A stretch of 64,000 nt of DNA from contig OZ017801.1 of NCBI GenBank assembly GCA_963969395.1, forward strand, positions 8,995,611 through 9,059,610, written 5' to 3'. The notes below the pieces were generated by a model. It was not told the DNA's origin. It did not search any database and worked only from the letters and a program-made list of their open reading frames with translations. This document shows positions 7,786-64,000 of this stretch, one piece after another. Every line of letters starts with the position of its first letter. Positions within the stretch are counted from its first letter, which is position 1. The position numbers and the translations under genes are program-made. This DNA comes from Pseudoscleropodium purum. Taxonomy: Eukaryota > Streptophyta > Bryopsida > Hypnales > Brachytheciaceae.

Positions 7786-7788
7786 TAA

Positions 7789-10709: not shown

Positions 10710-10904
10710 AATTGCATCACTACAAAATAAGTTTTGTTAAGCATTCACAACGTGATGGTGGCACTAATTGGCAGTCAATTATCATACAAACATTTCAGTG
10801 GTTGTCTCCAAGGCTTTTTTTTGGGTGAAATATAGCCAAATTGCACTTTAAAAAATTAAATTGTCTAAAAACTGGCAAAAAACCATAAAGTTGTTATCCA
10901 CAAA

Positions 10905-11098
10905 CAGGGTTGACGAATCTCAATGTCCGCCCCAAAATAGCGTCCGTTTTCCGAACGTCCGGACGCACGGACGCTAGGGGACGCATCGTCCCTCCCGCCG
11001 TCGGAAGGCGGATGGGCTGGGCGGCCGGCCGGGGTGGTCGGGCATACAGACTAGACGGGACGGACGGACAGGGCGGATGGGGCGGACTTCGCATTGCC
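10905..11098. mobile_element. Truncated hAT-like element end with CGGACG repeats
   Basis: The sequence starts CAGGGTTGAC and then aligns for about 180 bp with the left part of the complete element at 24763-25074, sharing 'tccggacgcacggacgc' and 'ccgtcggaaggcgga'. The matching right terminus is absent and the GC-rich sequence stops near 11098. Open frames on both strands here are by-products of the GC-rich repeat. It may be the 3' border of the unit carrying the minus-strand frame 11390-14788. Confidence 0.75.
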
Positions 11099-11389
11099 AT
11101 TAGTCATTAGAAAATTTTATATTGTTATGTAATTTGAATGTTATACAATCAAAAATGAATGCATCCACGTAAAATAAGATGTACATATAAAAATATTTTT
11201 ATACGCAAATGAAAATATAGCATCTTTATATATAAATATATATGTAGAAAAGAAATACATGAAAACATAGTTCCAATATCACTATTGAATCCTATACGAT
11301 CTTTTTAAGATCTAAATCTTTCACATTCTTTTTTGTTTTTAAACAATGAAAGGACCATTGTTTTTAAAAAACAAAATTCTCCTCAAATC

Positions 11390-14300: not shown

Positions 14301-14788
14301 TACAAGTCGGGAATGTCCTTTTGATTGGCTTCAAGCAGAAGTGGGCAAGCTGTTGTCGTCGAAAACGTGCTCCAATCGATCTTGCGCTCTAATATAAGTT
14401 CCGCGTAAACCATACACGCCACGCTATAATTAATATAGCCTTTACTTCTGCGCTTGTTTCCGAATAGAACACGCCACACCTCCTCAGATCGATGGACAAA
14501 ATGTTTGTTGTTGCAAGTCCATGGTTTACAACAAAAATCCTATGTATGACTCCTGTGCGACTCCTGAGGCCACAACTTGTCAATGTGGTACATTTTAACA
14601 TAGGTCCTGCACATTTTTGATGTCCAATACTCCGCATCTTCATCTTCCCACCCGCTCTCTGCTTTAATTGTAGGGTCATTTAAAATGTCAAGCCGAAGGT
14701 CATGCGTAGCCCCCTTCACGTTGCTCTTTTTCTTGGCTTCGCTTCCCGGAGTCACCCCATCCATATTTCGATCACCTTCGCCGTTCAT
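11390..14788 (-). pseudogene. Long element-borne frame with N-terminal zinc-finger-like domain, coiled coil and RING-like motif; three in-frame stops
   Basis: One minus-strand frame runs from ATG at 14788 to a stop at 11390, about 1130 codons, without any frameshift. It is interrupted by TAG at 14540-14542, TAA at 13859-13861 and TAA at 12212-12214. The N-terminus carries GWEDEDAEYW...MCRTYVKMYHIDKLW and then VWRVLF...NYSVACMVYAELILERKIDW. This matches, in order, the frame at 18198-19460. The middle (around 13380-13200) is a predicted coiled coil. Near 12470-12340 is C-x2-C...CRHTFYVTC...C-x2-P, resembling a degenerate RING finger. A basic stretch KRKQKRKREE near the C-terminus could be a nuclear localisation signal. 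The GC-rich CGTCCG block and a TATA box lie directly upstream. I do not recognise a transposase core. It is probably an accessory protein of an hAT-like element; function is unknown. Confidence 0.6.
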
Positions 14789-14989
14789 GATTGTCAATTG
14801 GATTCAATAACCAATTGAAGTGAATAAAAAAATCTCACGTGATAGTCAAAAGTGATGGCATCAACCGCAACACAGTAACAAAAGATAGAGGACCCCAACT
14901 CTCCACCCCGTAGGAGCAACTAGCGCATAAAGCAATAGTAGCACATCCAACTTGGCACCGAAGGAGAATTGAAGTGAGAAGAAATGAAA

Positions 14990-15260
14990 GTCACTCCACC
15001 CTTATAGCCGTCTGCCGCTGGACCTAGAGGCCGTCCGCCGCCGGACCTGCCCCGGACCGCGCGAAGCAGCCCCGAACCTCACGTTCGCCGCGCGGACCGA
15101 CGACGTCCGCTTTGGCAGCGGACGCCCGTCCGCCCGTCGCCCCATCCGACCGGCATGTCCGCACTGTCCGCCTTCTGATGCCGTCCGCGCTTTGGACACG
15201 CCGACCGCCCCACTTAAACACTGACCGCCACCGGCGTCCGCCCAGCTGTCCATTGGTGCA
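14990..15260 (-). promoter_or_regulatory. CGGACG-rich subterminal block with TATA box, upstream of the 14788 frame
   Basis: A GC island in AT-rich DNA, built from degenerate CGGACG/CGTCCG hexamers (15010-15245). On the minus strand it ends in GACGGCTATAAGGGTGGAG (TATA at 15001-15007), about 210 bp before the ATG at 14788. The same order (hexamer block, TATA, open frame) recurs at 17663-18198 and 21275-21641. Long open frames inside the block on both strands are composition artefacts. No CAGGGTTGAC terminus is seen at its outer edge. Confidence 0.55.
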
Positions 15261-15261
15261 T

Positions 15262-17660
15262 CCTATGAGGCCATTATTATTCAAAAAGAGCGGTAACATT
15301 TCAAAAATAAAACAGCCTAATAATCAGTGCTAAATGAGGATCAATGTAATTGATTTATCATTTAAAAAAAAAAAAATGTAAACCCTAAACCTTATACCCT
15401 AATTACCCTAAACCTTTTCTTTTCTCCCCTAAATTGTTTTACGAATGAGGGGATTGTGGTTAAGTTGAATATGTTTGAATTATTTACTGATATTATTCCT
15501 CTAAATAGGTTTTGAGAAGATCTGAAGATGGTGGGGATTTTTTTAAAGTTCATTAGGAAATCAAATGTTTTGCAAAAATAATCAATTCCATTTTCATTGT
15601 AAGCAAATGAAATTTAAAAGAAAGGCCCCAATACATAATTAGAATAACAGTTTAATGGATTTCAACCTCATGATATTTAATGAAAGGTTGTGATTTCCCA
15701 TTAAAAGTGCATCACGATCTTCAAATGAACATAGAGTCTTTCATATTTTTTAATGAAATTTTGATTAGATTTGAAAACAAAGAAAAAGAATCAATATTTT
15801 AACTTTCAAATCATGTATGGCTATATTTTTCCTTAAAAACATAGAAAAATTCGTTACTTGAGTTGGTGGAGTAGAATACATTATACACTTATACATGTAC
15901 TATATTTATTTTGAAGAGTAATTCCAATATTCTTATTTCAGATGTTTTTAAATATTAATTTTAAAAAAGAGGGTTCATTGTTTAAAGATCTAAAAAATTG
16001 ACAAATATAATTTCTATTATAAATAGGAATTGAATTCGGTATTCGATTTCTGAAATGATTCAAATGAACAAGATATTGATTATAAAATATTTCTTTGTTT
16101 GAGTTTTCAAAATGAATTCACGAAACAATTGCAAACTTTTGAACTTAGGTATATGGTATTGTTTTTGGTTTGTACTTTGTAGAGTATAATACTTCAATTT
16201 TAATCCTAAATAAATGAAAAAACTCCACAGGAATGAAATGTTTCTATGTATTACACAAAGATTTCTACCAATTACTATGATAATTAAATACATTGTTACA
16301 TTTCATAAAATATTCTACATAGAAAAAAAAAATCATTTCAGTTTTCAATCATGATAAACGATGACTTCTACTCTTTCTGTTATATGTTCATTTTGTATAA
16401 CGTGTACATTGTACAATCTTTGAGAGCAAGGTAGTTCATTTTTGGCTCTTATTGAAATAGAAAATATATTTGTGTTTGGATTTTGAAATCATTATGTATT
16501 CTACGGTCTTGCAAGAATGCAGCTTGTTCCTTCCTTTGAATCCTTTTGATATTTTCTTTATTTTCCTTTGTTTTCTGTCTCGTAGGGCTCTTATTCTCTT
16601 GTTTTCTTCATTTGACCAGCCTATTTGGCTTGGGTCTTAGTTTTTTGTTTTTGTTAATGTAATGGTTTATGCATATGTTATAAAAAATATATATTATTTA
16701 TCTAAAATTAATATATTGATGAACAAACGCATAAAGGCATTGAATGCTTTCACATTTAAAGTTATAAATCTATCATAAATCACTCTTGCAAATTTGAATG
16801 ATTGAATCGAAAATTTGAAAATGTAATTACAAGAGCTTTCAATTCAATCAATTGCATAAATCATAAATGTTGAAATGCAACTCGTATGAGTTTAGCATCT
16901 ATAAAGATTAATTCATGCCATCCACATGCAATTTCCCAATTTCATAAAATGCAATTGAGTACTTCAATTTCTTTCTTTTCAATTCTCCAAGTAACATTCA
17001 CTTCATATCTTTCTCTATTTGTTTATCTATTTTTTGGCAACAAATGGAGAAACCATCTTTGTCTATATTTGAACATGCACTCTTATTTGATTGATGAAGA
17101 ATAGATCTATAAAATATATAATCATTGATTTGTTCATGTTGATTTATCTAATATATTTTATGTATGTATATATATTTATATATATATATATCATTAAAGG
17201 AGTATGAAAGACAAGATTGACAGATTGTGTTCGAATGTTGTTGATTTTGAAATGATTTAGTACTATATCATTTATAAGAATATTATAATAGTGTTATGTT
17301 ATAATATTCCTAAAACAATTGCAACAAATATTAAAATACATGTTAAGTTAGGTTTGTTAGCCTACCAATTGTTCATTAATAGACATAATTGAGTAGCCCC
17401 CTTAAATGAAACATTCAATATCTAATATCTTACAATCCAAATGGTGGATTTGTCTAAAATTTTTTCCACATCTTTTCCAACTAATTTACTACAAGATCCT
17501 ACGGTTACATATGCCCCAAAGTATTTTTCTTCTAAAACTTGATATTTGCATTACTATTGGCAGTTTTGAAGTATTTTTAGTGAAAAGAACTTTAGGGGTT
17601 AAACATCTATACCGTGAGAGTTTGAAAAAAGAACAATTTGCTTTATTAGGTTTAGGATTT
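15262..17660. other. Gene-free AT-rich stretch
   Basis: Contains degenerate CCCTAAA-like telomere-type words at 15376-15415, (TA)n tracts near 16685 and 17166-17192, and short random frames (for example 16060-16293 and 16886-17104) without recognisable domains. No element ends were found. Confidence 0.45.
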
Positions 17661-44400: not shown

Positions 44401-46909
44401 TTCCACTTCTTTCCCATCATCATTGTAGACAAACTTTAGTCTACATCCTTCAAGTACCAAAACGTCTACTCATATATTAAAACATATATCAAAATGATGG
44501 CATTGATGTATCGAGGCAGTTTTGGTGGCCAACTAGAAGGAGATGGAGCTTTTGCACAACATCTACAATCAAATTGAGATCTTTAGAAAACTTGTTGATA
44601 TAAAAAATTCAATGCAAACAAAACTTGCAAGGAGATAGATGGATTACACACTTAGCATGCAGAGACTACCTTTGCTCTTACAAAGACAAGAATCACTATG
44701 CCTTGTGGTTTGCAAAACTTGTCAATAAATTGTATATAGACTTGAGATCTCATGTCAAAGCTCACATCTTACAATCATACAATAGTAGTCTGATTGATAT
44801 TCATATGAATGTGTGAACAGAAAATCGTCAGCTTGCAATGGCTTGTTTTCACATTCAAAAGTTCCTGCACTTGATTATTCTAAACAACTTTCAAGTCTAA
44901 AGTCATATAATTTGAATATTATAATTACATCACTCTGTCAAGCAACAAGGCAAGGTAGGTGGGCTTGTCATGACTGTACTAACACATACATTGTATCTTG
45001 TCAAAGTATGTGATGTAGAAAGAAATTCGTGACCATTTCTCCAACATGAGCAACTCTTGCTTTGTGGTAGATTAGCGACCATGTGTAGACTGATTTCACA
45101 ATTTTATTTCTAGATATTGTCTTTAAGGACTTCAAATTTGTTGTATAATCCACTAATACTTTTGTGTCACCGATGTTGGGGAACAAACAAAAATCAATGA
45201 TGTTGCTATCACATAATCAAAAGTGGGTGGCCCTTGAGCAATAGGGTACCTATCCTTTCTCATGAAGGATTAATGGTTCTTGCTTGAATAGTTTTTTACA
45301 ACAAATCCACTTGCAAATAGATCCCTATACAAGCTTGGTACTTTGTCTATATCAACTAGTGTTAATTGTTGCCCATTGGATACCATTTACAAGCTTGTTT
45401 AGAGGAGGGGTTTTAGTTTTTCGTGATCTACATATGTTGTTTAGCCATTTTTTTGGTGCAAAACAGAGAAAGGCTTGCATATGATAACTATTGATGCACA
45501 ACACCTCCTTTAGTTTTTGCCAAGCCTTTAGATCAAACTATCTACAATCAAAGATATTATTGTCCTCGTCAACCTTCTCTTAGAAAGCTTTCTCTGTGAT
45601 CATTTTTGCAAGCACCATCTTGTTTTTTTTCTTGTCGTCCACAAGCCAATTGCAATGGCTCTTGTCTACACCTTTAACCTTATGAAAAAGACCCTTAGAG
45701 AGGACCAAGTCATGTACTTAGCTAGCTTTTTTATTAACACATCATCCAAAACTTTCAAGCAACGCAATTGATTGTAGTTGATGGGCTTGACTTTAAATGG
45801 AACAAGTGACCCATTCTAGGTTTGCCTTTCTTTGAAAATACAATCTTTATCGGTGTCATAAAGAGTCCCTTACTCATGACTCTTAAAGAATTCCTACCAT
45901 ATTGACCAAGTCTCATCCAAGGACACTATGAGATATTTGTCTCCCATCTTGTCAAAGTTAGAGTTTTTCATGGATTCATCATCTTTCTTCATGCCTTGAG
46001 TTTACTCAAAGCTTTACATAACCTTCTCTTTGAAATCCTATACATAAAGAATCATTTCAATTTACCTAAAAATTTTCTAGAGCTTCAAACCTTGTAGTCT
46101 AAAGTAACTTTGCTAAAAAACTTTCAATTACATTGCAAAATCTATCACCTCACTTCAAACCACGCAATTTGAAGCAAATATTTTAGAGGAAATTATATAA
46201 TTGAATTGAAATTCCTATATTAGAAAATCAATGAATCATTTAAATTCGTCTTAAAGGCCTTGAAGAATCTATTACCTCACTTTAGACCTTCCGATATGAA
46301 GTGAGACTCTATTTTACATGAATTTAAAAAATTGAATCAACATTGCTATATTAGAAGAACAATAAATCATTCAAACCGTAAGATCTAATTAACGTCATAT
46401 TCAATAAAATGGGAGGGTAGGGCACTCCCAAAATAAACTTTGGCTAAATAAGTGAACCAAAATGGGCTCAAATGAAGCTCAATAATCTCATATTTTATTA
46501 GTTAATTATCAATTTCCATTAAAATGAGAGTCTTGCAAATAATACATGTCCTTTAATAAATATAAAATTGTTTCAAATCAAAAACTTCTTTCACAGTAAA
46601 ACAAAATAAACAAGAAATATAACATGAGATACAAAAGGACGGTATATGTATAATGGTTTCAATTGCTAATACAATATAAAAACCTGTATTTCTTATAAGA
46701 GAACTATAAAATAATGTAATCTTACATACAAAAACCAGCACTTGAACATTTGTAAATATAAACGTCTACATTTACAAGTATGAAAGAACATAGTATTCTA
46801 CTTCTCTCACCATCATCTGAAGGCATATTGCTCATTTATTAAAATCAACTAGCATTGTATGAGATAGATTTAACAATGCAAGAAAAAACTTATAAAACTA
46901 CCGTTGCAA
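41403..46909. other. Mostly gene-free stretch with possible degraded coding remnants
   Basis: AT-rich. A tandem of about 60 bp ('aaaactctttaggtccacrt', two to three copies) lies at 41985-42150. The minus-strand frame 44460-44215 gives an acidic peptide (VEAKEIEESETT end). Minus-strand translation of about 45960-45500 reads for short distances like protein, with frequent stops, suggesting an old degraded gene of unknown type. The 3' boundary of the proposed large element ending near 46.9 kb should lie in here, but no terminus was found. Confidence 0.35.
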
Positions 46910-49738
46910 TTAAGACTGAGGAAAACTAACCAAACTTTGGTTGATGACTTCGATTTGAGCAATAGGGATCTTGATCATACATTGTCGCGTATCCTTCCTA
47001 ATTAGAGACTTCCACGCTGTTATAAGAGCGTCCGTGTGTTGCCATAATGGCGGTTCGCTTTCATCAATTTTCCAACGAAAACCTCTGTTGCTATCCCATC
47101 CAGTGTAGAAGTTTTGAACGCTCTCATCTTTTGAAGTTGGACGGAAATACTGAATTAGCACACAATTTGGTTTTTCAGGATTGCAATTGGGATTAGACAA
47201 AGCCCTTGTAATCCAAATTGGATGACTATCACCATCTGCTGGTCGAACCGCTACAAAGTACCCTTCAAAGAGATCACGTCCCACCCTGAAAGATGGTTGT
47301 GGGCGACCACTCAAAGGCCCGACATATGCTTCATCTTCTCCAAACTCTTCGCGAACTTCACCTTCTTCATTTAGTTCATCTATTTGAGCTGCTTGAATTC
47401 GAGTCGTCGGCCAAAAACCATCCTTCAAAAAAGTAAATGCAGGTACTGGATCTTGTAGCGCTACCTTCACATCACGCCAGTAGTGTACCACATGTTCATA
47501 GCGCCTTCGACATTCACCACTGCTGTCCGCATTGCATAGGTTCTCCCAGTATTTTATAAATCCAGATATACCTTTCACAATGTCTTCAACGCCTTTCATT
47601 GACTTCAATGAAATTGGTAATGGTACACCACGTGGCCACAAACTTTGTCCTTGAGCATCTTCTTTCCACAACTTAATGCCTCTACCACCCTCCCCTAACC
47701 AATCCCCATCAGTGCACAACAACTTGTATTTCATAACAGGACACCCTGTTGAATCTAAATAGAACTTTACTTGTTGTGGTCTTGTGTGTCCAACGAGCAT
47801 GTCAGCACCATCTACAAATGCACCAGCAATGAAATTCTTGAAATCAGGCACCTCTTCTATAAGGTGAGGAATAGTCGGAGTGGAATCCACATCCATAAAT
47901 GATTTCATCAACGCTGGCACTGTAGGGAAGTTCTCTTTCTTTAGCTGCATACTCCATCTTCCAAATAGTGCATCAATGTCATCCTGCGTATGACCAACAA
48001 TCATGAAATTCACATATACTTCACGAAAGATCTTGTTTGCAACAAGTAGGGACCAAAAACAAAATACATATCTGTTTTTGTTGTCTCCAGTGGCATTATC
48101 CATCTGCATAATAAGAATAGGTGGCAATGGTGTCGCCGGAATTGAGGTTGTTGGGACTTCAGGAAGCGAACCTTTGCAAATCTCACTTCCCTTGAGCACC
48201 GCCTTAAACAAATTCGTGGACTTCGAATTCATAAACAACTCTTGAGATGACGCCTTTGGTGGCAATTCAAGATCTCGCAACAACTTTGCCACAGAGCCAA
48301 TTGTATAATTTGAATCATGGGGAAAGAGATCCAATCCATAATGCGCATACTGCACATCACCATGGCCATGCGCAATCATTCCAGTGACCGATACAGGCAA
48401 CTTCATCAAGCCATCAGTGTCTTTACTCTTGTGTGAGAAAACCGGACAAGCAGTTTTAGAATGACCCATCTTGTCATGCATAATTGTGAGGCACTCGTGC
48501 GGAGAAGTTAGCGACCAGAAACGATTAATATAGTATAAGTCCCGGTGAGCACGAGCAGTAGAGAGGTGATTGTCCAACCTCCGTTGCCACATCAAAGCAC
48601 TGCTGGAACCAGCAAGAGCACCCTTCCTGAGCTCTTTGTATTTGTCACAAGTAGCACATCGCGCGAAATTGTCCCCGGGCTTCTTGACTTCATACTCTGG
48701 AAACTTTGAAGACCTGATCTTACTTAAATTCGAAGTTGAAATATCCTTCAATCCAAAAGCTGCATTAATATCATTGATTTCTTGCAACTTTCCCTTCCAC
48801 TGAAAGGTAGAGGGAAGACACATAGAAACAACCTTCTCTCCAGACTTCATAGTTCGAGTACGATGTGGCATATGATCGGCTTCTTTCTCAAGGATGCACT
48901 TCAATGAAACAGCAGCTTGTTGAGTATGTTTCCTCGGTTTTGACATTCCTGTATTACCATGTTCCATTGCTTCTCGATGACCTTTCACGTGTGTTTGGTA
49001 GCGAAAGAATGTGGATTGTGGAACCCCAGAAATATGCATCCAAGCTCGCATACAGACAGGGACCTCTTCAACTGTGACCATCCTTTTCCCACGGGAATCG
49101 TAATGATATTGTCTGTGGACATCCAGCTTCATGAAGGATCTATGCTTGAATGTGGAATTATGATACATGCGCTCACGGAAAGCCCGAATCTTCTCTCTAG
49201 GAAACGGTTTAACACAATTTCGACTACAACAAACTTTGCTAGACACTGCATTAATGGATTGTTCTGTAAGCAGAGCCTTCGACTTCAGAGAGGTTTCACG
49301 AGGCGGGTTTCTTGACGTGCTTGAATACTGTCATGTCGATGTAGAAGAGTTTGAGTTCAAGGCTCTCGCTCGGAGAGAGTTGTACCTATCTCGGACTTCG
49401 TGGTCATGAAAACTTGCTCCTCGATAGTGAACGAGTTTAATAGGCCAAGCTATGAGTGAATAAATTTTCTCTCTTGAGATATTGACATCGGAATGTGACT
49501 TGGAAATAAACACTGCTACATGAGTGTCACCAAGGGGACCATCTGCTCCGCTGACAAGGTCCAAATTTACATTATGGCAAGTACCTTCACCAACAAGTAC
49601 TCCGTCTTCATTGAATAGGGTGACACATTTCATGTTCCATAACGAACGTGGAAGCCCTTCGCAGTTTGGTAAGTCCTCCATCATTTCCTCATGAACATGG
49701 AACTCCTCATCTGATTCATCCATCTCCCCGACTGGCAT
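46910..49738 (-). pseudogene. DUF7869-like element protein, one in-frame stop
   Basis: A minus-strand frame of about 942 codons from ATG 49738 (the frame stays open upstream to 49783) to 46910, with one TGA at 49333-49331 and no frameshift. The N-terminal part (LWNMKCVTLFNEDGVLVGEG) is separated by the stop from the rest. Central motifs are FARCATCDKYKELRKG, LTIMHDKMGHSKTACPV, then QMDNATGDNKNRYVFCFW and, about 35 residues later, MIVGHTQDDIDALFGRWS. The D-x5-NKN and GHT-x2-DID pair is the signature I associate with DUF7869, found in many apparently mobile eukaryotic genes. The acidic residues are arranged like a nuclease or transposase site, which is inference. The frame is nearly intact, so the insertion is recent or the gene is still expressed. 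The upstream flank carries the palindrome cluster shared with the 60.5 kb gene. Confidence 0.65.
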
Positions 49739-49850
49739 GCCAGTCGAAGATATATCACCAGAGTAAGACGAAGAACGGAACAAGGAAAAGTGACTTGAAA
49801 GAATTTTACAATTTCAGGAGGAGTGCATTCAGTGAAGTAAAGAAATGCAT

Positions 49851-50996
49851 TTCAGCGCGGTTCGCGCTAAAATACAATTCCACAGAGAACAACACAAATA
49901 ATACATACACATTCCAATAACATTGATTTTCATATTACTTTTACAGAGTTCGGTTAAAAAGTAATATCTACTTCCATATACTGGAATTTAGTAGAACACA
50001 AACCAAAAAGAAAATCACATAAATTTCTACCGATTTTCATTTTGAATTTGGAGGAAATGAAAATCATTTATCTATAAAACATTTGTCCACCACAACTGTA
50101 GAGGACAACAGGGAAATAACAATTTCCCGTGCATCATAGTGAATTGAAATTTTGAATGAATTCTCCAGAATTTTGAATGGATTAATGAACAATCGTATGA
50201 ATTTAGAGAGAATGCGCGGAAGTGGAACAATGACATAGTACTGATTAAGTAAAAACACATGACGACTTTACACATCACACCTGCAGGCATCCAGAAATTT
50301 TGTATTAAACGAGTATAGTAGAATGCATTTCAGCGCGAGTCGCGCTGAAGTGCAATTCAATGATCTTTTTCCGACGACAACGTGCATGAGAATGGAGGTC
50401 ATATTATATTCTATAATGAAGATCAATAACATCATTTTCGTTGTATTAGCTATTAAGTAACATTATTTTCCAAATATGAATCTGAATTCCTAGTCATCTT
50501 CGGACACTTCAGAATGCACGTAAATCTAGACATACATAAATGCACATCAGTGAGAGTCGCGCTAATGTGCATTTCATTCCACTACCATAAAACTCAATAT
50601 CAAGACATATATTGGATTTCCCAAACATGACAACAAAATTGGGACATGGTAATGCATTTCAGCGCGAGTCACGCTGAAGTGCATTTCTAGTCCAAATCAT
50701 GAAATATACTGCGTTTTATCAAGACTGGATTCTTGATCCATTTCATAACAGAATTCGTTGAATACACTTCAGCGCGACTCGCGCTAAACTGATATGCTGT
50801 TTACTAAATTAGTAGAGAGCCTGACTTCATCTCTAATCTCGATTTACTTCATTTAAAAATCAGGACTTGCACTTCAGCGCGAGTCGCGCTGAAGTGCATT
50901 ATGCAATCTAGTTTCATAATGGGAAGACTTATAGGAACGTGTAGAAATGAAATTGAAAAAGACCTTGCTTGACTTTTCAGCGCGGCCCGAGCTAAA
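49851..50996. repeat. Palindrome cluster A, seven copies
   Basis: Copies of a palindrome with core AGCGCGAGTCGCGCT lie at 49851-49870, 50329-50349, 50547-50565, 50658-50679, 50768-50788, 50869-50897 and 50976-50996, in otherwise AT-rich DNA upstream of the minus-strand frame. The copy at 50869-50897 is perfect, with two 14-bp arms around a central G. Arms carry either TTCAGC or TTTAGC, and the centre is G or C. Many copies are followed by GTGCATT or preceded by AATGCATT. Spacing is irregular (about 90-480 bp), so this is not a tandem satellite. Confidence 0.92.
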
Positions 50997-53415
50997 CTGC
51001 AAGTAAGAGAATTACTCATATATCACTTCCGATTTGGCACTTCGACATCGTAAATTTCAAACGTGTAAACCTCCTATTTTTAGTAATTCCGAAATTTAAG
51101 GAAAATTCCCATCAGACAATAACAGTCTTTGACCATTTGCTATCTCAGATCAAGCTTCGAAATTGAAAATTCTTTGCAATGCAATTGACAGAACATGGAA
51201 AGCGTATATGACAAGTGAAGACATGCGCACTGTAATTGTAGGGAGAGGAGTGACAGATGACATAAACCTTGTCTATGCTAAATAAGTTACGAAAACTTCT
51301 ATACTGACGAAGAAGGTGGAGTGCATTACAGGCGAAGGTGTGCGATGCAGTGCTTCCTCGTTGAAGGCGGTCGATGAGAACAACGTGATAGTAATACAGA
51401 GACAATTCAGAACTTCTAAACTTCTCCACTAAACCAAACAACGCAAGGGAAAGACGCACACGAACTATGCAACGCTCATTGAAGTCCTTTTAGTGCAGGG
51501 AAAAGGTAGAAGGAGATGTCTACAGCTGGGTTAGCAATGTACATTGTACATCCTGGCGGGAACGAAAGGGCGCCAACCGTATCCAAGATTTTGAACACAT
51601 TCCTTCTAAATTCAGATGTCCCGAGATTCCTCATGCCTATGACAACTGTACATTGTAAAGCGTCTTCTAATTCTAGATTAAACCACAGTCCCCACAATTG
51701 GTAGTAGGTGAGTTGCCTTTCCAAGATTCTGATTATTAATGCTTGTTGACTTCCAGCAAGTGATGTGTCTTTTTGTCATTGGGACATTGTCCACAACGGA
51801 AGGCGCAATTGCAATGCATACAGTGCGTTTTTTTATTTTCGTTTTTTAGCACTCTGACTAAAATGACTAAAGGGTGTTATTAGCAAGATAACTGTCAATT
51901 TGATTCTCCAAGTACGATGCCCTTACCGTATTTTGTCTTACATGGACTACTTAAAAAACACATACTAAAAACTTTTCATTATTTATAGAGGAATGGAACT
52001 TTGTTGCAAAGATTTTGGAGTTCTTTTCGAAGTCGGAATTATTGTTTTTTTCTTATATTGAGTACGACTGCGGAGATCCCTTCTCCAGGTCTTTTGGTTT
52101 CATTTCTCTTGAAATGCAGAAGTCGCGATATTAGTTTGTAGTATTGGAGCTTTTAAATTCGAAATTTTCTGACAATTTCATCCAAAATCTTACTAATTGT
52201 TTTTGATAGGCTTGGTGTAGAGAAAATAATTTTGGTGCAATTTCACTCCAAATCGCCAGAAAAAAGAACCGTGCCCATTTAGCCTATAGTAAATTCGTAC
52301 TCTGCGATAAGGAATATGATTTCGAATTTTTTTCAAAATAGATCGATTTTAAGGTTATGTTTTCTTGAAGATCATATTTTGCATTTCAATTTAGGGTTTC
52401 ATAGATCTTAGTAATAATATCTATAACAATGTTGAATGAGGTCAATTTCAAATGGTACCAAAAAATAGGGAGTAATTGTTTCATATACTTGAAATGTTCA
52501 CATATCAAAAAAAAAGATACTGCATGCACCACCACATTGCATCAAGTTCTACATTTCTGTATTAAGTGAGTACAATTCTTGAATTCCTCATTCTATTTTT
52601 GTGGAAGGTTGAAAATGAATTGGTGTAATAGAATAGGAGAACACTGATTCGTTGCACTTTAGATGTTTGCTTGCCCCCACAAAATAAAATTCACTACCAC
52701 ATGCAAGAGACAATTCTTTCATCAAGTTCTACATTCATTTTCTGTTGCAATCTATGAGATTTTCATTTCAATCTTTCAAAAGGTCAACATTATATGGGTG
52801 CCAAAAAAATTGGAGAGTTCTTGTTTGTTCTACTTTAGACGTTCATTTGTTTCAGAATATTGGAATGCACTGCCACATGCAGGAAAAGAGGAAATTTGTA
52901 CATATTGTTGATCCGTACAATTTTCTGTTTAGGATGATGTAAATGAAATTGAAATTGAAGACATGAAAAATTTGTATGATTTACCTTCCCTGTTTATTAG
53001 GTTAGTTTTATTCATGAAATTTTATATTTTCACATTCTTATTTTCTCAAATGTAGTTGGCGCTAGGTTTGCTACACAATATGTATATTACTTTCATCAAT
53101 TTTGCATGTAACAGAATGTAGATGAAAAATGTATGTCTAATTCTTATATGAAAATATTGACATCCTCATATATTACATTTGCAATTGCAATATACATAGA
53201 CATTGCACTTGAAAGCAATTAAAGAAAACTATTGTATCATAATTTAAAGCGCAAAATCCTTTGCAACAATGAAAACATTGAAATAAAAAAATTAATGAAG
53301 CAAAAATGTAAGTACAAGCTTCTCTTTTGAATATGTAGAAGAACACTTTTAGTTTCAAGGAATTCTTGCATGAAACATTATTACTTAATTAATTTTTTCC
53401 TCCATAACCTATGGG
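50997..53415. other. AT-rich stretch without palindromes or genes
   Basis: Short frames at 51145-51459 (minus) and 51476-51724 (minus) are not recognisable. No AGCGCGAGTCGCGCT palindrome occurs here, although the flanking sequences on both outer sides have them. No element terminus is seen other than the insertion beginning at 53421. Confidence 0.4.
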
Positions 53416-53420
53416 GACAC

Positions 53421-56400
53421 TGTCGCAGTTTAGAATTTTGATTTTCTTAGTATACACCAAAATAGGAACGGAAACTAGTCATTAGCTAACCGGATCCGAT
53501 TAGGTGGGGAAGGAAAACTCAGAATTAGCACGGAACGTGAAGTAATGGGCTTCTTGGATCTAATCCGGTCAGGAGTAACTAACGATGGAAACGGAATGCA
53601 ACACGGATTAGGTCTAGGACCGGATGATGATGATGAACCGGATTCATGATGACAAACCGGAAAGGGTCCAGGGACTATATAAGGAGGAGTTTTCACTGTT
53701 GCACCCCCTTTTAGAAACTCGACCTTGAGAGCGCGCGGTTGAGTTTTTGGAGTTTGTGCGTCTGGACGTTTGTGTTTTGTCTGTTTTGATTCCGGTTGAG
53801 ATCGGAGAGAGGAAGTGAGGAACGGGACGTGCGGCTAGGAGAGAGTGAGGTAGTTTCGAGTGGGAATGCCTCCGCTACGTAGGTCGAGACAAGCGAGTCC
53901 CTCTGCAAGTGAGGTGAAGCTCCGGAAAGTCATTTCGGTTATTCCCTCCACAGAGCCGGAAAAGTCTCAACTCATGGATGATCTCAAATCCATGGGTTGC
54001 GTAGGGTTTGCCGAGAAACTTTGGGGTTTTAGGGAGGAGAGAATGGTCAAGGAGCTCCTTGGAAAGTTGTCCAACCAGTTTGACAACACCATGAGAGGAA
54101 CTCCCGTCAGCTGGAACGAGGGGATGTGGAGAGCGGTTTACGGTTTCCGGGCAGGAGGTTTGGGAATGGCGAGCCGGAAGGATGAGTTTGTCCGAGGGAA
54201 GTTCAAGGGAGCCGTCAACCCGAAGGACGGATACGCGGTCGAGGATTGCTTGGATGACCGACACCGTCGGCTCCTGCAATTCCTGGTTCCGGTTCTTCAC
54301 CTGGAAAAGCCGACCAGGGTGACGATCACCCTCGGCAACACCATTTTCGGTGCCCTCAGTGGTACCCGGAAAGTGGATTGGGCACGGATCATTTCCGATC
54401 TCGTGGCCCAGCTTGTTAGTAGGGTTGGGAAGAAAAGGGCCACTCCAGTGTGCCCTTATCTCTTCCACCTCTATCGGGAGAACCAAGTCCTCACCGATAC
54501 GGAGGAGAGGGCGTGGAAGACGCAGGAAGTGCTCCTGAAGTATGGGGAGTCGGAGACGGATGACGAGGCGGAATCCGATTCCGGGTCAGACCGGGAGTCC
54601 AGCGAGGAAGAGGAGGAGCCGATGCCGCCGATCAAGCGACAGAAGCTGACGCCTCCACACAAGCGCGGGACGCCTCCCGGTCAAGACAAACCGGCCCCGG
54701 AGGAGAAACCGGAAGCCGAGAAGACCAATTCCGGGGGAGATCCGGATATGCAAGATCCGTTCAACGGTCTGATCAACGTCCTCTGCAACATCAGGGCGGA
54801 TTGAGAGGTCAAGCACAGGACACTTGCGGCAATCGGCAAGTTGGTGGGTGCGGCACCGGACAGCAAATTGGCGGAACAAGTGGCGGAGTGCATCACGAAT
54901 CCGGAAGAGACCCGGAAGCAGGAAGCAGAGATCCGCCGGTTGCAGGAGGAGGTGGATAAACTGAAGGCAACTCTTTTTGCCTATCAGGAAGACGTGACGG
55001 CCGCCCGGGAGATGGCGGAAGAGACTCGGAAGATAGCCGAGCAGATCAAGGCGGTCCTGGGAGAGACCGGAACGGCCCCTGCCAAAGCGAAGCTCTTCGA
55101 CGAGAAGATCCACGAAGAGAAGAAACTATCCGGTTCCCGGATGGTCCGGATTCTTGCGGACTTCGCCGAGCAGGTGGAGACGGCAATGGTGGAGGGGCGG
55201 AAGGCAGCGGACCGGATCAAGGAGAGCAGCTGGAAGCTGACGGGAGCGACGTGCGACAAAGGTATTCATCTTTCTGACATCTCGCTACCGGATCTCTTTC
55301 CGGACGCGACCATTCAGAAGGATAGGAAGGATTGGACTCCTGAGTCCAAGAAGTCTATACGGACTGGGACTCCGGGCACGAGACCGGATATCACCATCGA
55401 CCTGGAGTCTCCACCCGGACCGAATCCTGCTGAGGGGGAACGGGTCCGGAATTTGAGTGAAGTCTTCGAGGAGCTGTCACGGAGGTCGGAAGCCCGACGA
55501 TAGGATCTCGAGTTGTAGGGTAGATAGGATTTTAATTTCAGTTAGGAGTAGGAGCGGATCCGGATCCGGATCCGGCTCAACAGTATTAGGTTAGACCGGA
55601 AGTTAGATTAGGGTGGCGGCGGACCCCTACGGGTTTTCCGCTCCTTTTTGTGCTTTTAGGGTTTTTACCCTTTGTATATAAATCGGTTCCTGCGATGGGA
55701 ACTGGGAGTTGTTCATTTTGCAAACTTCTTGTACTTTTCTATTCTCTTCATTGTGTGTCTCTCTCCAGCGCGACAGGATTGTATGATGTGGAGTTAGGAT
55801 AGTACGGGTTGGTTTGCGAGTGATTTCTCCCCTTGGTGTTTATTTTCCGATCCTAGGTGAATGTGAGTAGGTACTGAAGAGTTGGGAGTGAACTTAGTTC
55901 CTCAGCACGTCTAGAGTTTGAGATTCCGGGTGAGAAAGCCGTTGTTAGGCTAGGCGGGTAGGGAGGGATTCCTTAGCTGCGCTAGAACTCCCGGGTGGGA
56001 AATCCGGTTGAGTGTCCGATCTCTTGTGAGGTCTCACCACCCGTATGGGTAACGGAAGAACTTTAGTTGATGTTGGAACGGACGGGTGCACTTGTAACCA
56101 CCTGTCTTCGCACGGATCAGAAGTAGCATCAAGGTCGTTGTAGTACGAGAGGGTCGAGTGTGGGGTCTTTGTGTGACCTACGACCCGGATTGCTATCTGG
56201 GTTGTTGTGAAGGACCAAACCGGATCCGGATTAGCTTAGGAGTTTAGAAGGTAGGACAGTGGGTCTTCAGCCACTATAAGTCACGGAAGGAGTGGTGGGC
56301 CTACCACTCTCAAAATTAAGCGGCGACCCCTCTGATGGTGAAACAGAGGCAAAACCAAACCGGATAGGATTACGAGTACAGGATGACCATCCGGACCGGA

Positions 56401-56705
56401 TTGGTCAGGACGGATTTCCAGGATCGGAAATTGTGAGATCCTGGGATTTGGGTATTTGTACGGACCGGATAGTTAGTAGGACCGGAAGAAGGAGTAATCC
56501 GGTCTGTAGTTATCCGGTGTGGTGGTATTTCTGGTTCTAGATCTAGGACCGGAAAGTAAGATTGGCATACTGACTAAGCTCAACTGCTTAATAGAGCTAG
56601 ATACTTCACAGGATCTCGTGGGTTCGATCTTTAGAGTCACTTAGTTATACTCTAGAGCGATTTTTGTGAGTATAATGGGGAATTGACCTGCCCTGTGCTG
56701 CGACA
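53421..56705. mobile_element. 3285-bp insertion with 8-bp inverted ends and 5-bp TSD
   Basis: The left end is TGTCGCAG (53421) and the right end CTGCGACA (56705). GACAC flanks both sides (53416-53420, 56706-56710). A 5-bp duplication with TG...CA ends is what retroviral-type integrases leave, but I find no long terminal direct repeats, primer-binding site or polymerase. Both non-coding arms (53490-53660, 55555-56560) are dense in ACCGGA/TCCGGT words, including a CGGATCCGGATCCGGATCCG run. TATA-like sequences occur at 53676 (CTATATAAGG) and 55674 (GTATATAAAT). One long frame lies inside. It is either a non-autonomous or solo-LTR-like retroelement or an unclassified DNA element. Confidence 0.75.
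53866..55503 (+). pseudogene. Element protein, about 545 codons, one in-frame TGA
   Basis: The ATG at 53866 (MPPLRRSRQASPSASEVKL) lies about 190 bp after a TATA box. The frame runs to the stop ending at 55503 and is broken only by TGA at 54802-54804, after which it continues in phase. The first part (PVSWNEGMWRAVYGF, DRHRRLLQFLVPVL, ITLGNTIFGAL, CPYLFHLYRE) is the conserved region shared with 23729-24340. Its pattern recalls the 'putative plant transposon protein' domain of plant elements, which I offer only as a suggestion. Next comes an acidic stretch (DDEAESDSGSDRESSEEEEE) and a long coiled coil (about 54890-55100). No enzymatic motif is seen. The whole reading frame is GC-rich compared with the older copy, indicating youth. 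The stop may mark inactivation or a real two-frame arrangement. Confidence 0.65.
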
Positions 56706-56710
56706 GACAC

Positions 56711-58473
56711 AATATTAAAGATTCAAAATGTAAATTTCTCAAATTGCAAAGACTTTGTTGTTCCTTTCAAAATTCCAAAACTTGAACTGAAATTTCAAAT
56801 TCTTGGCACTTGCTATGCTTTGCATTTCTCATTAAAATTGTACTAAAAAACTTTTATATTATACAAAGTGTTGCAACGTTCTGCAAGTGAATTCAAGTTT
56901 AATCAATTCAATTTCAAGAGGAAGTCTTTAATAATTTATCTACTAAATTTGTTGCTAGTTTATTTACAATGTATAGTACGAGTAACGAATTGAAACAATT
57001 TTTATCAAAATTGCCTTAGAAACTCTTCAGTTCGAACAGTTTAGGGACTTATAAATTCAACATTACAATCAGCAAGCTTTTTGCCTCACTTGCTATGCTT
57101 GGCCATGAAGGTTTCCAAAAATTTCATGGAACATACTGTATATTATTTACAATAAGATGGGTACTTCAAACAAAATCTATAAAAGATGCATGCAATAGAA
57201 AATACTACACAAGTTCCAGGGCAAATTAAAAATTATAAAAACAGGAATGCTACTTTTTTGTTAAATTGACAATGCGTGTGCCCATGATTATGCAATGTTA
57301 CGCTAGCGAAGAGATTGTTATACTCATTAATTTGATTGTTGGCCAAATTATTTTGACAATAATAAGGTCATCAATTAAGAAGACATGTCAAGTGGCTTCT
57401 CTCCATATCTGCCAATAGAATAATCCAATGTTTTAAGCATTCAGTATATGAATGTATTTACCTTGATATGAAGTCAACTAAGATCCAACTTTTCCATGAA
57501 GTACTTTCATTTTCAACTTGATTAAATTATGAAGGATAACCAGAACTTATATATTATGGCATTATTGTTTTTTTTGAGTCTATGTGGTGTACGTAAGCAA
57601 ATTAAAATTGGTTTCAAACATTTGAAGCATATTTGTAAAGAAATGAACACTTATTTTACTCATGTTCATGTAGTATTGTAGATGGAGAGCAGTTTCGTTT
57701 TTGCAAATTAAATGAAGAGCTTCCTTACTGCCCAAATATAAATAAATAGTTCTAAAATTGACTATAATACCAGTGCACTTCTAGCCATTCATGAACTTCT
57801 ACGAAACCAATTGCTGAACTAGATAAATAGAATTGCAATAATCCATTTCTGAATATTTTCCATAAATAATAATGGGATCTTTGTCACCAATAATATTTGG
57901 GTTCTTTGCTCTTTTATGTACTTGGAGCATAAACAAAATATTTTTTCACACTACCATGTTGAATTCTAAACGACCTGAAATCTTTCAAACAATTTCTAAT
58001 AAACTATTGAAGAAATAGAAGAAGGGTGTGTTTCACCATTTCTACAAAGTTTTAGATACAATGTCAAATACTCTTTGAAAAAAAAAAAAGGAATGAAAGA
58101 GGTACAATCTCTTTGCAACAATCACCTTAAACTCACAACAAGAACATTAACTTCTAAATGCCCAAGGCCTATTTTGAGCCTTTAGAAATTTGCTCTAAAT
58201 TGAACAAAAAGTCAACATTTTGATAAGTTGTATCAACTTTTTTTGAATTGTAATTGTTCAAATTCAAACTCGACATGTTAGAGATCACATAGGAAGAAAA
58301 AATACAACAATATTACTTATAAGTTGGAAGATTATAACATTTGAGCATGAGGGTGTTAAAACTATGAAAAATTTTCAATTCACTTTTCACAAGTCAAACC
58401 TAAGAAGTTGGTGACAAAAAAACTATGAGGTTTAAGGACCTAACATGAATAACCCCAATCAATTTATGGCACA
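56711..58473. other. AT-rich stretch without genes
   Basis: This sequence continues the DNA interrupted by the insertion ending at 56705. No coding signal is present. The part 58140-58440 is the inverted copy of 8610-8925. Confidence 0.45.
58140..58440 (-). repeat. Inverted copy of the 8.6-8.9 kb repeat
   Basis: The reverse complement aligns with 8610-8925 through the landmarks 'ccttaaacctcat', 'acttcttaggtttgac', 'ttaacaccctcatg', 'ttataatcttcca' and 'caatttagagcaaat'. No termini or target duplications were found. Confidence 0.7.
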
Positions 58474-58520
58474 ACCCTAAACCCTAAACCCTAAACCCTT
58501 AAACCCTAAATCCTAAAACC
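58474..58520. repeat. Interstitial plant telomere-like tract (CCCTAAA)n
   Basis: Four to six CCCTAAA units, some imperfect, lie just upstream of the GC-richer leader of the 60.5 kb gene. Short telo-box runs are common near plant promoters and first exons, and the tract is embedded in unique sequence. It is not a chromosome end. Confidence 0.85.
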
Positions 58521-58599
58521 ACATAGCCTAATCCCCCCAAACCACAGCCAGTGGCGCCCTGCCACGTGGCCAAGCGGGTGGCGGGTGGCGGGGCGGATG

Positions 58600-59152
58600 G
58601 CGAGCAGTGCGCTAGCTCATTGTAGCAGGGTTTAGGTTAATTTTGTATTTGTCGGCACGGACTCATTCTTGCGCTCCTGTTGTCTGTGTAGGCTGATTGC
58701 GGTTTTGTCGGCGCGGTATGATTCATGCGCTCCTGTGTTGCCGCCCTCGTCTGTTTCTGTGTTGGTGTAGTTGAAGGTCTCGATTGTCTTGCGGTTTGTG
58801 TCACCTAGTTTTCGAAGGTGGAGCGCCGGCTTGGAGGTTCAGTGGCTGGCTCTGGAGTGCGCGCGGTGTGTTTTCAGGTTGTTCCTTCTCCTTCCGCTGC
58901 TCGTTCAACTTTTTATTGTATACTTCTCAGACTTTGTGTTTGTGCTTTAGATCATGCTTGTGTTTAGTGTTTTAGGTTTTGTGTTGAATGGATTTGCAGC
59001 TCATTTGTGTTCTTCTATAGGGTTTCAAAGTTTGGCTTGTCCTCATTTAAAGCTACAGCTTGAATTCTGTTTCCTTCGTGATGCAGGTTCGATAGGAGAA
59101 CGAGGAGCGACTTCCAAGTTTGAAAATTTCGGCCGTGAATAACTAAACGAAA
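58600..59152 (+). promoter_or_regulatory. Probable promoter and leader exon of the 60.5 kb gene
   Basis: A GC-richer, T/G-rich stretch with a local duplication ('tgtcggcrcgg...gcgctcctgt' at about 58650 and 58707). It contains frames without recognisable domains. AAAG|GTATGC at 59150-59158 is a good donor site. The first good acceptor directly before the downstream ATG is TTACGTTGCAG ending at 60507. An intron of about 1.35 kb between them would place palindrome cluster B inside an intron, as for the other copies in this gene. This is inference from splice signals only. Confidence 0.4.
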
Positions 59153-59601
59153 GGTATGCACGGTAGTTTCTTTTGTGGAATTCTATTCTACTTCGTGGAA
59201 GATGCTCGTTGTGGCTTCGCATCAGGTTGATCAAGAGTTGTAGAAGTTTCCGTGAGAGCCTTGATGTTGTGCTCATTTCTCTTACTGTAATGTTGCTGGC
59301 TCTTAGTGCTCGTTCGTGTGTGACCTGTGCAGTTCTGTAGAGCAAATCTCCAGTGCAAATCCGAACTTTCATTCCAGGTACTTGGCATCATTCGTTTCTT
59401 TTTCCCTTTTGCAGTATGATCTGCAATGCTTTTCTGTAGTTACAGGGTTGGTGTTACTTTTTAGATAGAGAAGTACGCCTTGTGATAGAAGTAGTCACCC
59501 GAGCCCTAAACCTTCAGATGAATATGGGCAAACCCTAAAATGAAAGCAATGAAAAAAGAATTTACCAAACCTGAATCCATTCTGAATCCTAGCATTTGTC
59601 A

Positions 59602-60424
59602 TTTCAGCGCGGCTCGCGCTGAAACAACACATGCTCCACTATTAACTAACGTCGCAGACGTTAGTTTATAAACTTCACTGGAACTCACGAACAGTGGTTG
59701 CACAGATATACCTTGCTGTATATAAGATGCACGATAGTTCAGCGCGAGTCGCGCTAAACTGTCAATCATCGATACCAAGGCATCCCAGAGAACAGAGATT
59801 CATACAGTAGTAAAAAACTAAACAGTAAGGCAGTTTAGCGCGACTCGCGCTAAACTGTCAATTATCACAATTCCTACGACATAATATATTCATAAAACTC
59901 ATTCCATTTCCTATCAAATTCTCTAGAGATAGAATATGACGAATTCATAACTATGCACTAAACGCATTACATTACCAATTCATTTCTCAAGTAGAAGAAC
60001 AGAAATGATTCCAAGAAATACATTACTATAGAAGTCCATCCGCATACAAATAGGATACAATTTAGAGCGAGCCGCTCTAAAACGACATTCTATGATCTTA
60101 AAAGCAAAGTAAAGGAAGTTTCAGAAACCAAATCATAAACAACGATAACGACATATAAAGCAGTTCAGCGCGAGTCGCGCTAATATGCAATTGGAGAAAA
60201 TGATGAAAAGTTATTCTACCGGATGAAATTACTCTCAGTGTTACCAAAAACAAATATGAATCTGACAGTCACCGCCACAGAAAACAATGGTTGAATGAGA
60301 GACTCAAAAATATGTACATAAATTCATCCACTATAAAATTTCTATAATATTTACAGAAAGTCTGTAACAGTCAGACCATAATGGAACGCTATAAATGTCA
60401 TTTCAGCGCGAGTCGCGCTGAAAT
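59602..60424. repeat. Palindrome cluster B, six copies
   Basis: The same palindrome as in cluster A occurs at 59602-59623, 59738-59758, 59831-59857, 60061-60080 (degenerate), 60163-60183 and 60400-60424. The copy at 59831-59857 is a perfect palindrome with TTTAGC arms around a central C. The cluster ends about 85 bp before the ATG at 60509. Palindromes also occur in both introns of the gene but in no exon. Confidence 0.92.
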
Positions 60425-61957
60425 GCATCATTATTTTCAAGAACTATAGAGACTTCGGTTGGTGTTTTGCCGGTCTGACTGAAGTCCGGAATTTTCTTAC
60501 GTTGCAGAATGGAAAACCAACTGGAGGCGCTCGAGATGTACTTCAAGAGATCCGATGTGCAGTTCTTAGATGACGACAAGGCTACTGAAGACCACTTGAT
60601 TGAAGGGGAGTACTGGGTCTTCAAAGATCCAGAAGAAGTAGAAGCATGGAGTTTATTCACGATCCCTTTCATCAACCAGTTCTGCTTTTCCTACAAATTC
60701 AAGAAATCGCAGTGCTTCCTACAACTCTCTTTCCACGAGAAGATCAAAGACATCGAGGCTGATGCCCACCCAATGATCAAAATCAAGTGCATGACAACAG
60801 TACCTGGCGAGTCAAGAAGGGACCAATACCACTTTGCTATCTGCCTCGACTCGGTATTAATTCCCTTCAACTTAAGTCCATTCCTGAGCAGCCTCGATCC
60901 AACTCCATATAGAGACGAAGTGAAAGAGCTAGAGAAGAAATTATACCATAATGAGTGGAAGAACGCCAACGGAACTCCGTTGTCCTGGAAAAAGTTGTGT
61001 AGCAAAATCCGGCTCCTATTCAACGACTTCTACATGCTGAAGGGGAAGATGGAAAAGTAGAATGAAATGAATCAACCACGCACTGTGTCAAAGGAGATAA
61101 TGAACCAAGGCGTAAGTCAAGGTTCAAAACTGAACGTGGGTCAACAGTCAGGTACCAACCGGGGGCAGAGGAAAAGTGTACAGAAAACTCCACAGAAGAA
61201 AGGCAAGAAGGATGCTCCATCTTCATCAAAACGGAAACCGATCACTCGGGACTCTGAAGTGTCCGAGGTCGCTGAAAGGAGCTATGCGGACGAGATGTCC
61301 AATGTTCCTCACTCATGGGCAACAGAGAAGAAACCTAACTACGAGCAAGTGAGCCAGGTCTATAAGAAATTTTGGACGACCTGAGAGGACGCATACATCT
61401 TCAAGGTTGGGGAGAAGAAAGTGATTGACGTCTTCCAATTGGTAGATCCACCGGCAACTTTCAATATACGCTCCAAGCAGGACAACATTGTCGAAGATAT
61501 GGTCAATTATCTACTCAATATCCCCGACAAAAGCACGAAGCAGACACTTTGCGTTATACCTGTTGGGCATGACACAATGCCCAAGAACTGGGAGGATATT
61601 GAGAATGGCCAATTCTATGTTATAAACGGACTGCACAGTGTTGCAGCTAGCAAATTTATGCTGGACGAGAGGAACAAGGTGAACGCGGAAGAAAGAGAAC
61701 ACTTCCGTAGGTGGAACTGCTTCGTTGTTTGGTCGAAGGATGCGGAGACGCTCAGATGTATCTCTGCCTACTACAATCGAACCAATCACTTTGTGGCAGT
61801 GCAGCCGTCGTGGGCGACTAATATTTTAGGAGCTCGATCGGTATGGGAGGCAATGGGAAGACCGAAGAATCCCACTCCAGCCAAATCTGTGGGAGCTGTT
61901 ACCATCAGTCGGCGGACAGTTGAGAACAAGAAGAACCGCGAAATTTTCCAGGTATGC

Positions 61958-61981
61958 AGTTTAGCGCGAGTCGCACTGAAG
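61958..61981. repeat. Palindrome copy in intron 1 of the 60.5 kb gene
   Basis: TTTAGCGCGAGTCGCACTGA lies 6-10 bp after the donor site at 61952, entirely inside the 120-nt intron. It is a slightly imperfect copy of the cluster A/B palindrome. Confidence 0.85.
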
Positions 61982-63436
61982 TGTTCCTCCTTGAGTTGAT
62001 TATGGTATATTGCAATCTCTCAATATCTGGATTGAGTGCATAATATAACTGATTTTCATGTTATTCTGTAGGCGTTTGAGAAGGCCATGTAAGTAAGATT
62101 TTCACTAATCGAGGTTGTGAAGAGCCTGAAAATTTCCAAGACTAAGGGGAGGGAGGAGAAGCTGAAGCTGATGAACGAGTTGCGGCTGATTACTGCACCT
62201 GATGACATCTATAAACTGTGGAGTGAAGTAATCTCTGCAGCCGCGCATGGGGAACTAATTAACCCGGACACCGACAAGATGTTTAACGCACGGGCGGGCT
62301 GGAGCCCCGAGAATTGTCTGCTGAATCGGGAGTTCTTCAAGCACTTGGGCAATCTCAGCTATGAGGAACTATCCAAGCTTGCGAAACACCTTCTGAATCA
62401 AACGGGTGGAAAGCGCAGGCATTCATATCCTAAGGTGACAGTGAAGGCAATCTCTACAGTGCAGGATGATTGTTACAGCACCAAGGAGTGGGTAGAGCGC
62501 CATAAGCGGAAGAATCTCGTCATCAAGGAGCTTCACGCAATTGATCCCAGCCTTAGCCTTCTCAACTCAATGAACGAGGTGATCAACGAGAATTGGAAGG
62601 CATTTAAGAAGGAGCGCCTCTTTTCTAGCGCGACAATGGACATCCTCCTTGAGAGACCTGGTGAAGCCTACTTTGGCAAAGCGAAGAGCACGCATGCGAA
62701 GCATAAGACGTGCTCTGAATTGTCCCAAGACGCATATGATTTTTTTAAATCATTTCTTGACCACAAAGCCAAATTCGAAAGGCCATCCGCAAAAGCTTAC
62801 TATCGGGCATATGAGGTGGCCCGAAACCAGTACAAGGACTGGCCGGTGAAGTCCTGGACTGCAGAGACAAGTAATCGTTTATCTCTCGGGGTTATAGACT
62901 TCCGGTCGGTGCCAGGGGTGGAGAAGAAGGAGAGCTCTACGATGGAGAATCCTTTTTTCTTTGAAGTTCTGTCTTCACTTCAGAAGAGCAAGAAGCCCGC
63001 ACTCGAAGAAGTCAAGTCGTGGCTCTTCATATGTGGGGACGAGAAAGAGGAGGCCCAAGTGACGATCTTCGTGGAGTCTAACAAGGAGTTGAACAAATAC
63101 TTGGTTCACTACTCCTTGTACTGCGCAGGAAAAAATGACAGGATTGGGGATCTTGCGGCCGCGAAGACACCAAAGAAGGTGTTCCTTATGTTCTTGCAGC
63201 ACCCTGAGAACACCAATCAAGTCACCATTCCGTCGGAGTTCAACTGTCCCGAAACAGCTCGCTATATGAAGGCCCGTGCTTACAGTGAGCTAGAGTATAG
63301 AATTTATAACACGGAACTGCGTATGGAATTCTATCTCTGGCTGGTAAAGGCATTCGCAAGGGCGGGCACGGTAGTCTTCTCTGCCTTCACAGGGGGGAAG
63401 TTGACTTGCACTTCGGTGGTGAGCATCGCGGCCTCA

Positions 63437-63547
63437 GTTTAGCGCGAGTCGCTCTGAATAGCAATTCCTGATTTCATTTATTCTGTGATATGTATTTTTA
63501 TTTGCTGTGTGTATGTGCTATGTCAGTTCAGCGCGAGTCGCGCTGAA
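63437..63547. repeat. Two palindrome copies in intron 2 of the 60.5 kb gene
   Basis: Copies at 63437-63458 (imperfect, GCTCTGA arm) and 63525-63547 (TTCAGCGCGAGTCGCGCTGA) both fall in the 180-nt intron 63419-63598 and account for about a quarter of it. Confidence 0.88.
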
Positions 63548-64000
63548 ATGCATGTTGCAAGATATGACGGTCATAACTCCTTTCTTTGTTTTTGACAGAT
63601 GAGTGGGGTGGACGTTTATGTCACGGGTACATCGGAGTTGTCGCAGTGGTGGGAAGATATCTGTACCAAGGCAATGACGTTGGACATTGCGGACTTCTTG
63701 GACAGCAGCTACTCCACCCACTCTACCGATGTCCCTTCCTCCTCTAGGAGGAAGCTGAGGTCCGCTCAGAATTCCCCATTGAGTCAGCAGAGGAATAGGG
63801 AGACTCATGTCTCTCATGAAGTCCTATATGATTCCGAGGAGGAGGAGGAAGAAGAAGAAGAGCTTGAAGAGGACGGGATTGAGGGACTGGACGAGATGAC
63901 TACACCAACCAGTCGTCCGTCCACAGATATTCCGAGGTCGTCTGCAAGCTCTATGTTGCCTCCTCTCTCTCAAACGCCGCAGACTCCAATTGCATCGGGA

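Follow-up and report, generated by a model that had tools for sequence, protein, structure and literature searches.

A giant moss transposon with a putative family-specific recognition palindrome beside its DUF7869 and predicted ParB-like genes

A stretch of 64,000 nucleotides from the moss Pseudoscleropodium purum (assembly GCA_963969395.1, contig OZ017801.1, positions 8,995,611 to 9,059,610 of the forward strand; hereafter the window) was found to hold part of what is, on sequence grounds, almost certainly a giant DNA transposon, moss-type and of the cut-and-paste class. This copy runs from position 46391 past the right edge of the window to about 67246. The element carries two long genes that point away from each other, as reported in a first-pass annotation of the window. 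Gene 1 encodes a DUF7869 protein, gene 2 a protein with a predicted ParB-like domain, and clusters of one long palindrome lie beside both. The palindromes are likely to be the element's own recognition sites (putative binding sites). Taken as a whole, the explanation that we somewhat favour is that of a giant transposon whose palindromes are bound by a dimer of its own ParB-like protein, with anti-silencing or activation as the outcome.

Ends, copies and gene order of the element

The ends of the element were located by comparison with the flanks of nine further copies, in which similarity stopped sharply at the two positions given above. The right end therefore lies beyond the window, as the first-pass annotation had stated, but the left boundary was moved to 46391 from 46910, the first position of the region annotated there. 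The left terminus (AACGTCATATTCAATAAAATGGGAG; 46391 to 46415, plus strand), with which the nine other compared copies also begin, matched the right terminus in inverted orientation at 18 of 25 positions, an imperfect terminal inverted repeat. It is preceded by the 4-bp target duplication AATT (46387 to 46390), the right copy of which lies outside the window at about 67247 to 67250. In the ten-copy comparison an exact 4-bp duplication was present in nine, and the earlier proposal of a mobile element was substantiated by these termini and duplications. The exception (L027/L037, the copy at C44:98773) had CAAA on the left and ACAA on the right, which may reflect a shift or a mutation.

The Sola superfamily is characterised by a 4-bp target duplication and a DDD transposase with an RNase H fold. 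When compared by these hallmarks, not by sequence, the element was similar to Sola in its 4-bp duplication, and may be so in its transposase, for which an RNase H-type fold is predicted and which has three candidate aspartates. KDZ giant transposons have an 8-bp target duplication (Zisupton), which differs from the 4 bp observed here.

The window copy is 20,856 bp long, or about 17.57 kb without a nested insert of 3285 bp, and is broken: gene 1 has one in-frame stop and gene 2 has three. Two further copies were colinear with it except for the insert, a comparison that covered the middle region only. In the copy at C40:28.93M, about 4 kb of unrelated sequence replaced the region upstream of gene 2 (L038/L039, element coordinates 6646-10640); this unrelated sequence ended near telomere-like AACCCTA repeats, which were also present at window positions 58473 to 58520.

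Across the assembly (313 Mb, 52 contigs), a 1-kb probe from gene 1 gave at least 40 matches with 97-100% identity (208 first-look candidates) and a probe from gene 2 gave at least 40 matches with 94-100% identity (73 candidates). Among the matches listed (40 for each gene), a gene-2 match was located downstream, and on the same strand, of 30 of the gene-1 matches, at a distance of 12.1-26.6 kb (median of 13.7 kb). There were no opposite-strand pairs within 30 kb, and ten gene-1 and ten gene-2 matches were unpaired. The co-occurrence of the two genes that had been predicted for a single element was upheld by these pairs; independent occurrence was not seen.

The palindrome and its variants among relatives

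When up to three mismatches were allowed in both orientations, 16 matches to AGCGCGAGTCGCGCT were found in the window, seven in cluster A, six in cluster B and three more, the same distribution as in the first-pass annotation and with none elsewhere in the window. The mean for three mononucleotide shuffles, searched in one orientation, was 0.33 matches. Cluster A (49847 to 51000; cores at 49854, 50332, 50549, 50661, 50771, 50876 and 50979) occupies the 5' non-coding region of gene 1. Cluster B (59590 to 60430; cores at 59606, 59741, 59837, 60064, 60167 and 60405) is directly upstream of the gene 2 ATG and, judged by the acceptor ttgcag that abuts this ATG, probably lies within an intron of the 5' untranslated region. 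The full copy, followed past the edge of the window, contained 18 palindromes, since gene 2 holds five beyond cluster B; three of these are in putative introns and the last two between later exons. On the left, the outermost palindrome lies about 3.4 kb inside the end of the element; on the right, it lies 1.1 kb inside. Because the palindromes are internal, in 5' regions and putative introns, the comparison with subterminal transposase-binding sites that had been made previously failed, and a subterminal-site reading was rejected on the absence of the half-site from the approximately 60 bases at each terminus.

Starting at the centre and moving out along one arm, the half-site reads A G C G C G A Y T T n A C. 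The two arms varied independently: at position 8 they were equal in 9 of the 18 sites, compared to 8.6 expected, with C opposite A in seven sites and a G-U type pair in two. Since the variable positions are independent, the palindrome would represent two half-sites for a protein dimer rather than a paired stem.

An automatic comparison of the palindromes with aligned coding sequence, in which contigs of relatives (L043 to L046, see below) were included, returned overlaps for 7 of 58 sites (window copy 1 of 18, C40 2 of 16, L043 2 of 8, L044 1 of 8, L045 1 of 5 and L046 0 of 3). Five of the seven were at an exon edge and were read as alignment overrun past the donor site; the other two (C40 site 14878 and L043 site 2959) were on short alignment fragments between exons. 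In copy C40, at element coordinates 3942-4052, about 330 bases were missing between two palindromes and a hybrid palindrome was present where the remaining parts meet, a pattern that would be expected if the two sites had recombined.

The exact core AGCGCGASTCGCGCT occurred 251 times in the genome and its reversed control was absent. Each of the first 50 of these 251 places had a gene-1 match no more than 25 kb away and lay to the gene-2 side of it; such spans make up 0.3% of the genome. No sites with up to three mismatches were found in 182,610 bases flanking the element. At these places and in these flanks the palindrome is tied to the element and not evenly spread, which was the relationship that the first-pass annotation had proposed.

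A search of prokaryote genomes with gene 2 identified three relatives (L043, L044 and L045, with 30, 30 and 23% identity, respectively) in the cyanobacterial metagenome bin AVDCRST_MAG81, and the same bin holds one DUF7869 contig, L046. Since L043 to L045 hold interrupted P0122-like genes, the contigs presumably represent moss contamination of the bin. Palindromes of their own were present in all four: WTCAGCTCGA-N-TCGAGCTGAW at eight sites each in L043 and L044, TTTATCCTCGA-N-TCGAGGATAAA at five sites in L045, and CAGTTTAGCTCGA-N-TCGAGCTAAACTG at three sites, upstream of the DUF7869 ATG, in L046. In the whole 4.8-Mb bin, all 17 places with an exact CTCGASTCGAG were on L043 to L046, and the control occurred once. 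The centre CGA-N-TCG was retained across the relatives and the outer half-site differed. In all, four families with different half-sites had their sites in the same kinds of place. These family-specific palindromes are the strongest evidence that some element-encoded product may recognise them, and do not indicate which protein this would be.

The products of the two genes

Gene 1 (46910 to about 49738, minus strand) encodes about 940 amino acids by comparison with relatives; its start codon was placed from this comparison only, and an in-frame stop is present at 49331 to 49333. The Pfam match was to DUF7869 (E value of 9.3e-42). Based on a predicted fold of the RNase H type and three candidate aspartates, the product is likely to be an RNase H-fold DDE/D transposase, in agreement with the previous view of DUF7869 as a mobile-element gene. 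This offers a candidate function for DUF7869, which Pfam classes among domains of unknown function and of which no mention was found in the literature searched (subscription papers were outside the search). When viral contigs were searched with an alignment of gene 1, the one match obtained (L042; 29% over 160 residues) was rejected as a probable chance match; phage-tail-like frames were present and no such palindrome was found.

Gene 2 is on the plus strand. Exon 1 (60509 to 61951) contains a ParB-N/sulfiredoxin-like domain in its second half and stops at 61058-61060 and 61382-61384. It is followed by intron 1 (61952 to 62071), which was placed from splice signals and has a palindrome at 61963, right after the donor site. 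Exon 2 (62072 to 63418) is without a Pfam match and has an in-frame stop at 62090-62092; putative intron 2 (63419 to 63598) contains palindromes at 63441 and 63530; and the start of exon 3 (63599 to 64000) is acidic, also without a Pfam match. Further exons, one of them with a NIF-like domain, and two more palindromes lie between the window edge and the right end of the element; being outside the window, this phosphatase-like domain could not have been noted in the first-pass annotation.

The ParB-N/sulfiredoxin fold of gene 2 is a structure prediction, which backed the suggestion of such a fold in the first-pass annotation. Members of the ParB family have a GERR nucleotide-binding box and bind palindromic sites via a helix-turn-helix located after the N domain. 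Gene 2 reads GQHS in place of GERR (invariant in 7 and at least 90% in 42 relatives). Pfam and NCBIfam returned no ParB domain in seven gene 2 relatives, sequence-based profile searches against solved structures returned no convincing hit (a single unrelated match each, with E values of 3.2 and 0.17), and a viral-contig search with gene 2 gave no match.

The predicted ParB-like domain is fused to an FCP1/NIF-like domain in moss relatives and, probably by splicing, also in this element. The NIF domain scored above the Pfam curated cut-off (68 bits compared to 21.8). FCP1/NIF phosphatases have the catalytic motif DxDx; the corresponding residues were DLNG, with the second aspartate changed to asparagine, in all four sequences (L029, P0122, P0127 and L044), so that this domain (L029:2333-3160 and relatives) is possibly not catalytic. 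Named proteins related to both genes were found in two mosses, Physcomitrium patens and Ceratodon purpureus.

Possible roles of the palindrome, related systems and neighbouring repeats

In the mechanism that we propose, the gene 1 transposase would excise and insert the element, and the two independent half-sites of each palindrome would be bound by an element-encoded dimer. The ParB-like protein is the probable binder. By occupying the introns and 5' regions of the two genes, this protein would mark the element as self and sustain their expression, either by activation or by anti-silencing, much as VANC does for VANDAL elements; the transcription machinery may be a target of the NIF-like domain. 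Such a role in anti-silencing or activation is about as likely as not. Each family would have altered its half-site together with its protein, so that activation would not necessarily extend from one family to another. A more elaborate version appears rather unlikely, in which the protein would load at parS-like palindromes and spread over the element, the FCP1-like domain would keep host RNA polymerase II active so that silencing is escaped, and lineages would split by joint change of half-site and protein. If the proposed mechanism is true, the element would be a second plant example, next to VANDAL/VANC but built on other proteins, in which a transposon marks itself with sites for a protein that it encodes, and a bacterial partition fold would be tied to transposon self-labelling. 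The length, palindromic form and family specificity of the site make the idea directly testable; the P. patens proteins include relatives of both genes.

Some of the results weigh against this mechanism. No DNA-binding domain of the element was located. Among recent copies there was no extra conservation of the palindromes, with a rate of 0.043 compared to a background of 0.0235 in the gene 2 introns, 0.039 compared to 0.029 in cluster A, and 0.049 compared to 0.050 in cluster B (near flanks 0.034); after a CpG split, the palindrome rates were at or somewhat below background. This lack fits the decay of copies after insertion, and provides no support for the mechanism either. In L043/L044, weak matching between the arms was detected at 2 of 16 positions (p = 0.04 and 0.05, uncorrected).

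The arm matching in L043/L044 would suit palindromes that act as intronic RNA hairpins (or cruciform DNA) in splicing, RNA stability or small-RNA production, as would arms long enough to fold and a location in putative introns or 5' regions, in some cases right after a donor site. However, the arms of the window copy showed no covariation across the 18 sites and the centre permits a very small loop only, and such hairpins are improbable. It is unlikely, if less so, that the palindromes are internal sites at which the DUF7869 transposase acts in excision or synapsis and not in gene control: dimer-type sites suit a transposase, and the 5' region of gene 1 also bears palindromes, both here and in L046, but the outermost sites are kilobases from the ends and the approximately 60 terminal bases on either side lack the half-site.

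The predicted ParB fold, together with clustered palindromic sites like those of ParB-type proteins, could also mean that the protein partitions or marks element DNA in the nucleus, like plasmid ParB bound at parS, for segregation or copy tracking. Since the element is chromosomal, its sites are gathered at the two genes, and no ParA-like match was seen among the element frames given to Pfam, this explanation is no less improbable than that of hairpins. Neutral repeats, spread within the element by duplication or gene conversion, are very improbable; the deletion between two palindromes in one copy and the lack of extra conservation in recent copies are compatible with them, but the recurrence of different half-sites in the same kinds of place in four families speaks against them.

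The proposed self-recognition resembles that of VANDAL21 in Arabidopsis, in which the element's own protein, VANC, recognises short motifs in its introns and upstream regions, and motif and protein co-diverge between families (available text of PMC5735166 and PMC10398659). Both elements have specific motifs in their own non-coding parts that differ between related families at like places. The likeness is one of layout and not a comparison of proteins, and in the same sources the VANC motifs are of about 9 bases, in one orientation and often tandem, whereas the palindromes described here are of 21-31 bp and non-tandem. Sola1-1_Ec32 of Ectocarpus, a 21.5-kb giant DNA transposon, likewise has a ParB-like gene opposite in strand to the transposase gene; its ParB-like domain has a DNA methyltransferase as fusion partner, in contrast to the NIF/FCP1-like domain here, and no palindromes are mentioned for it in the available part of that paper (PMC12477816). 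Among bacterial proteins, ParB, Noc and KorB (for KorB, available text of PMC11790492), which have palindromic operators, share the predicted N-domain fold and clustered palindromic sites with this system, which differs in being eukaryotic, in having GQHS for GERR and a NIF-like fusion, and in the absence of ParA from the Pfam-scanned frames.

No description of this element was found among the titles and abstract openings of the literature searched, or in the accessible text on Physcomitrium transposons in PMC7466625; the search did not extend to subscription papers or Repbase. In the light of the Ectocarpus report and of a review table that lists Sola1 for Physcomitrella (PMC9033089, available part), the term undescribed, used in the first-pass annotation, is uncertain. 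Within that literature there was no prior report of the NIF fusion or of the family-specific palindromic site and its placement.

The nested insert (53421 to 56705) is not part of the element. It has 8-bp inverted ends, TGTCGCAG/CTGCGACA, a 5-bp duplication, GACAC, and two coding-like frames, for neither of which a Pfam match exceeded the cut-off; long terminal repeats were not found in it. Pieces related to this insert adjoin copies L023 and L027. Another repeat is present at window positions 10904 to 15363, which recurs over 4463 bases, with 94% identity, in sequence flanking copy L025; one of its frames gave weak RING-finger matches only.
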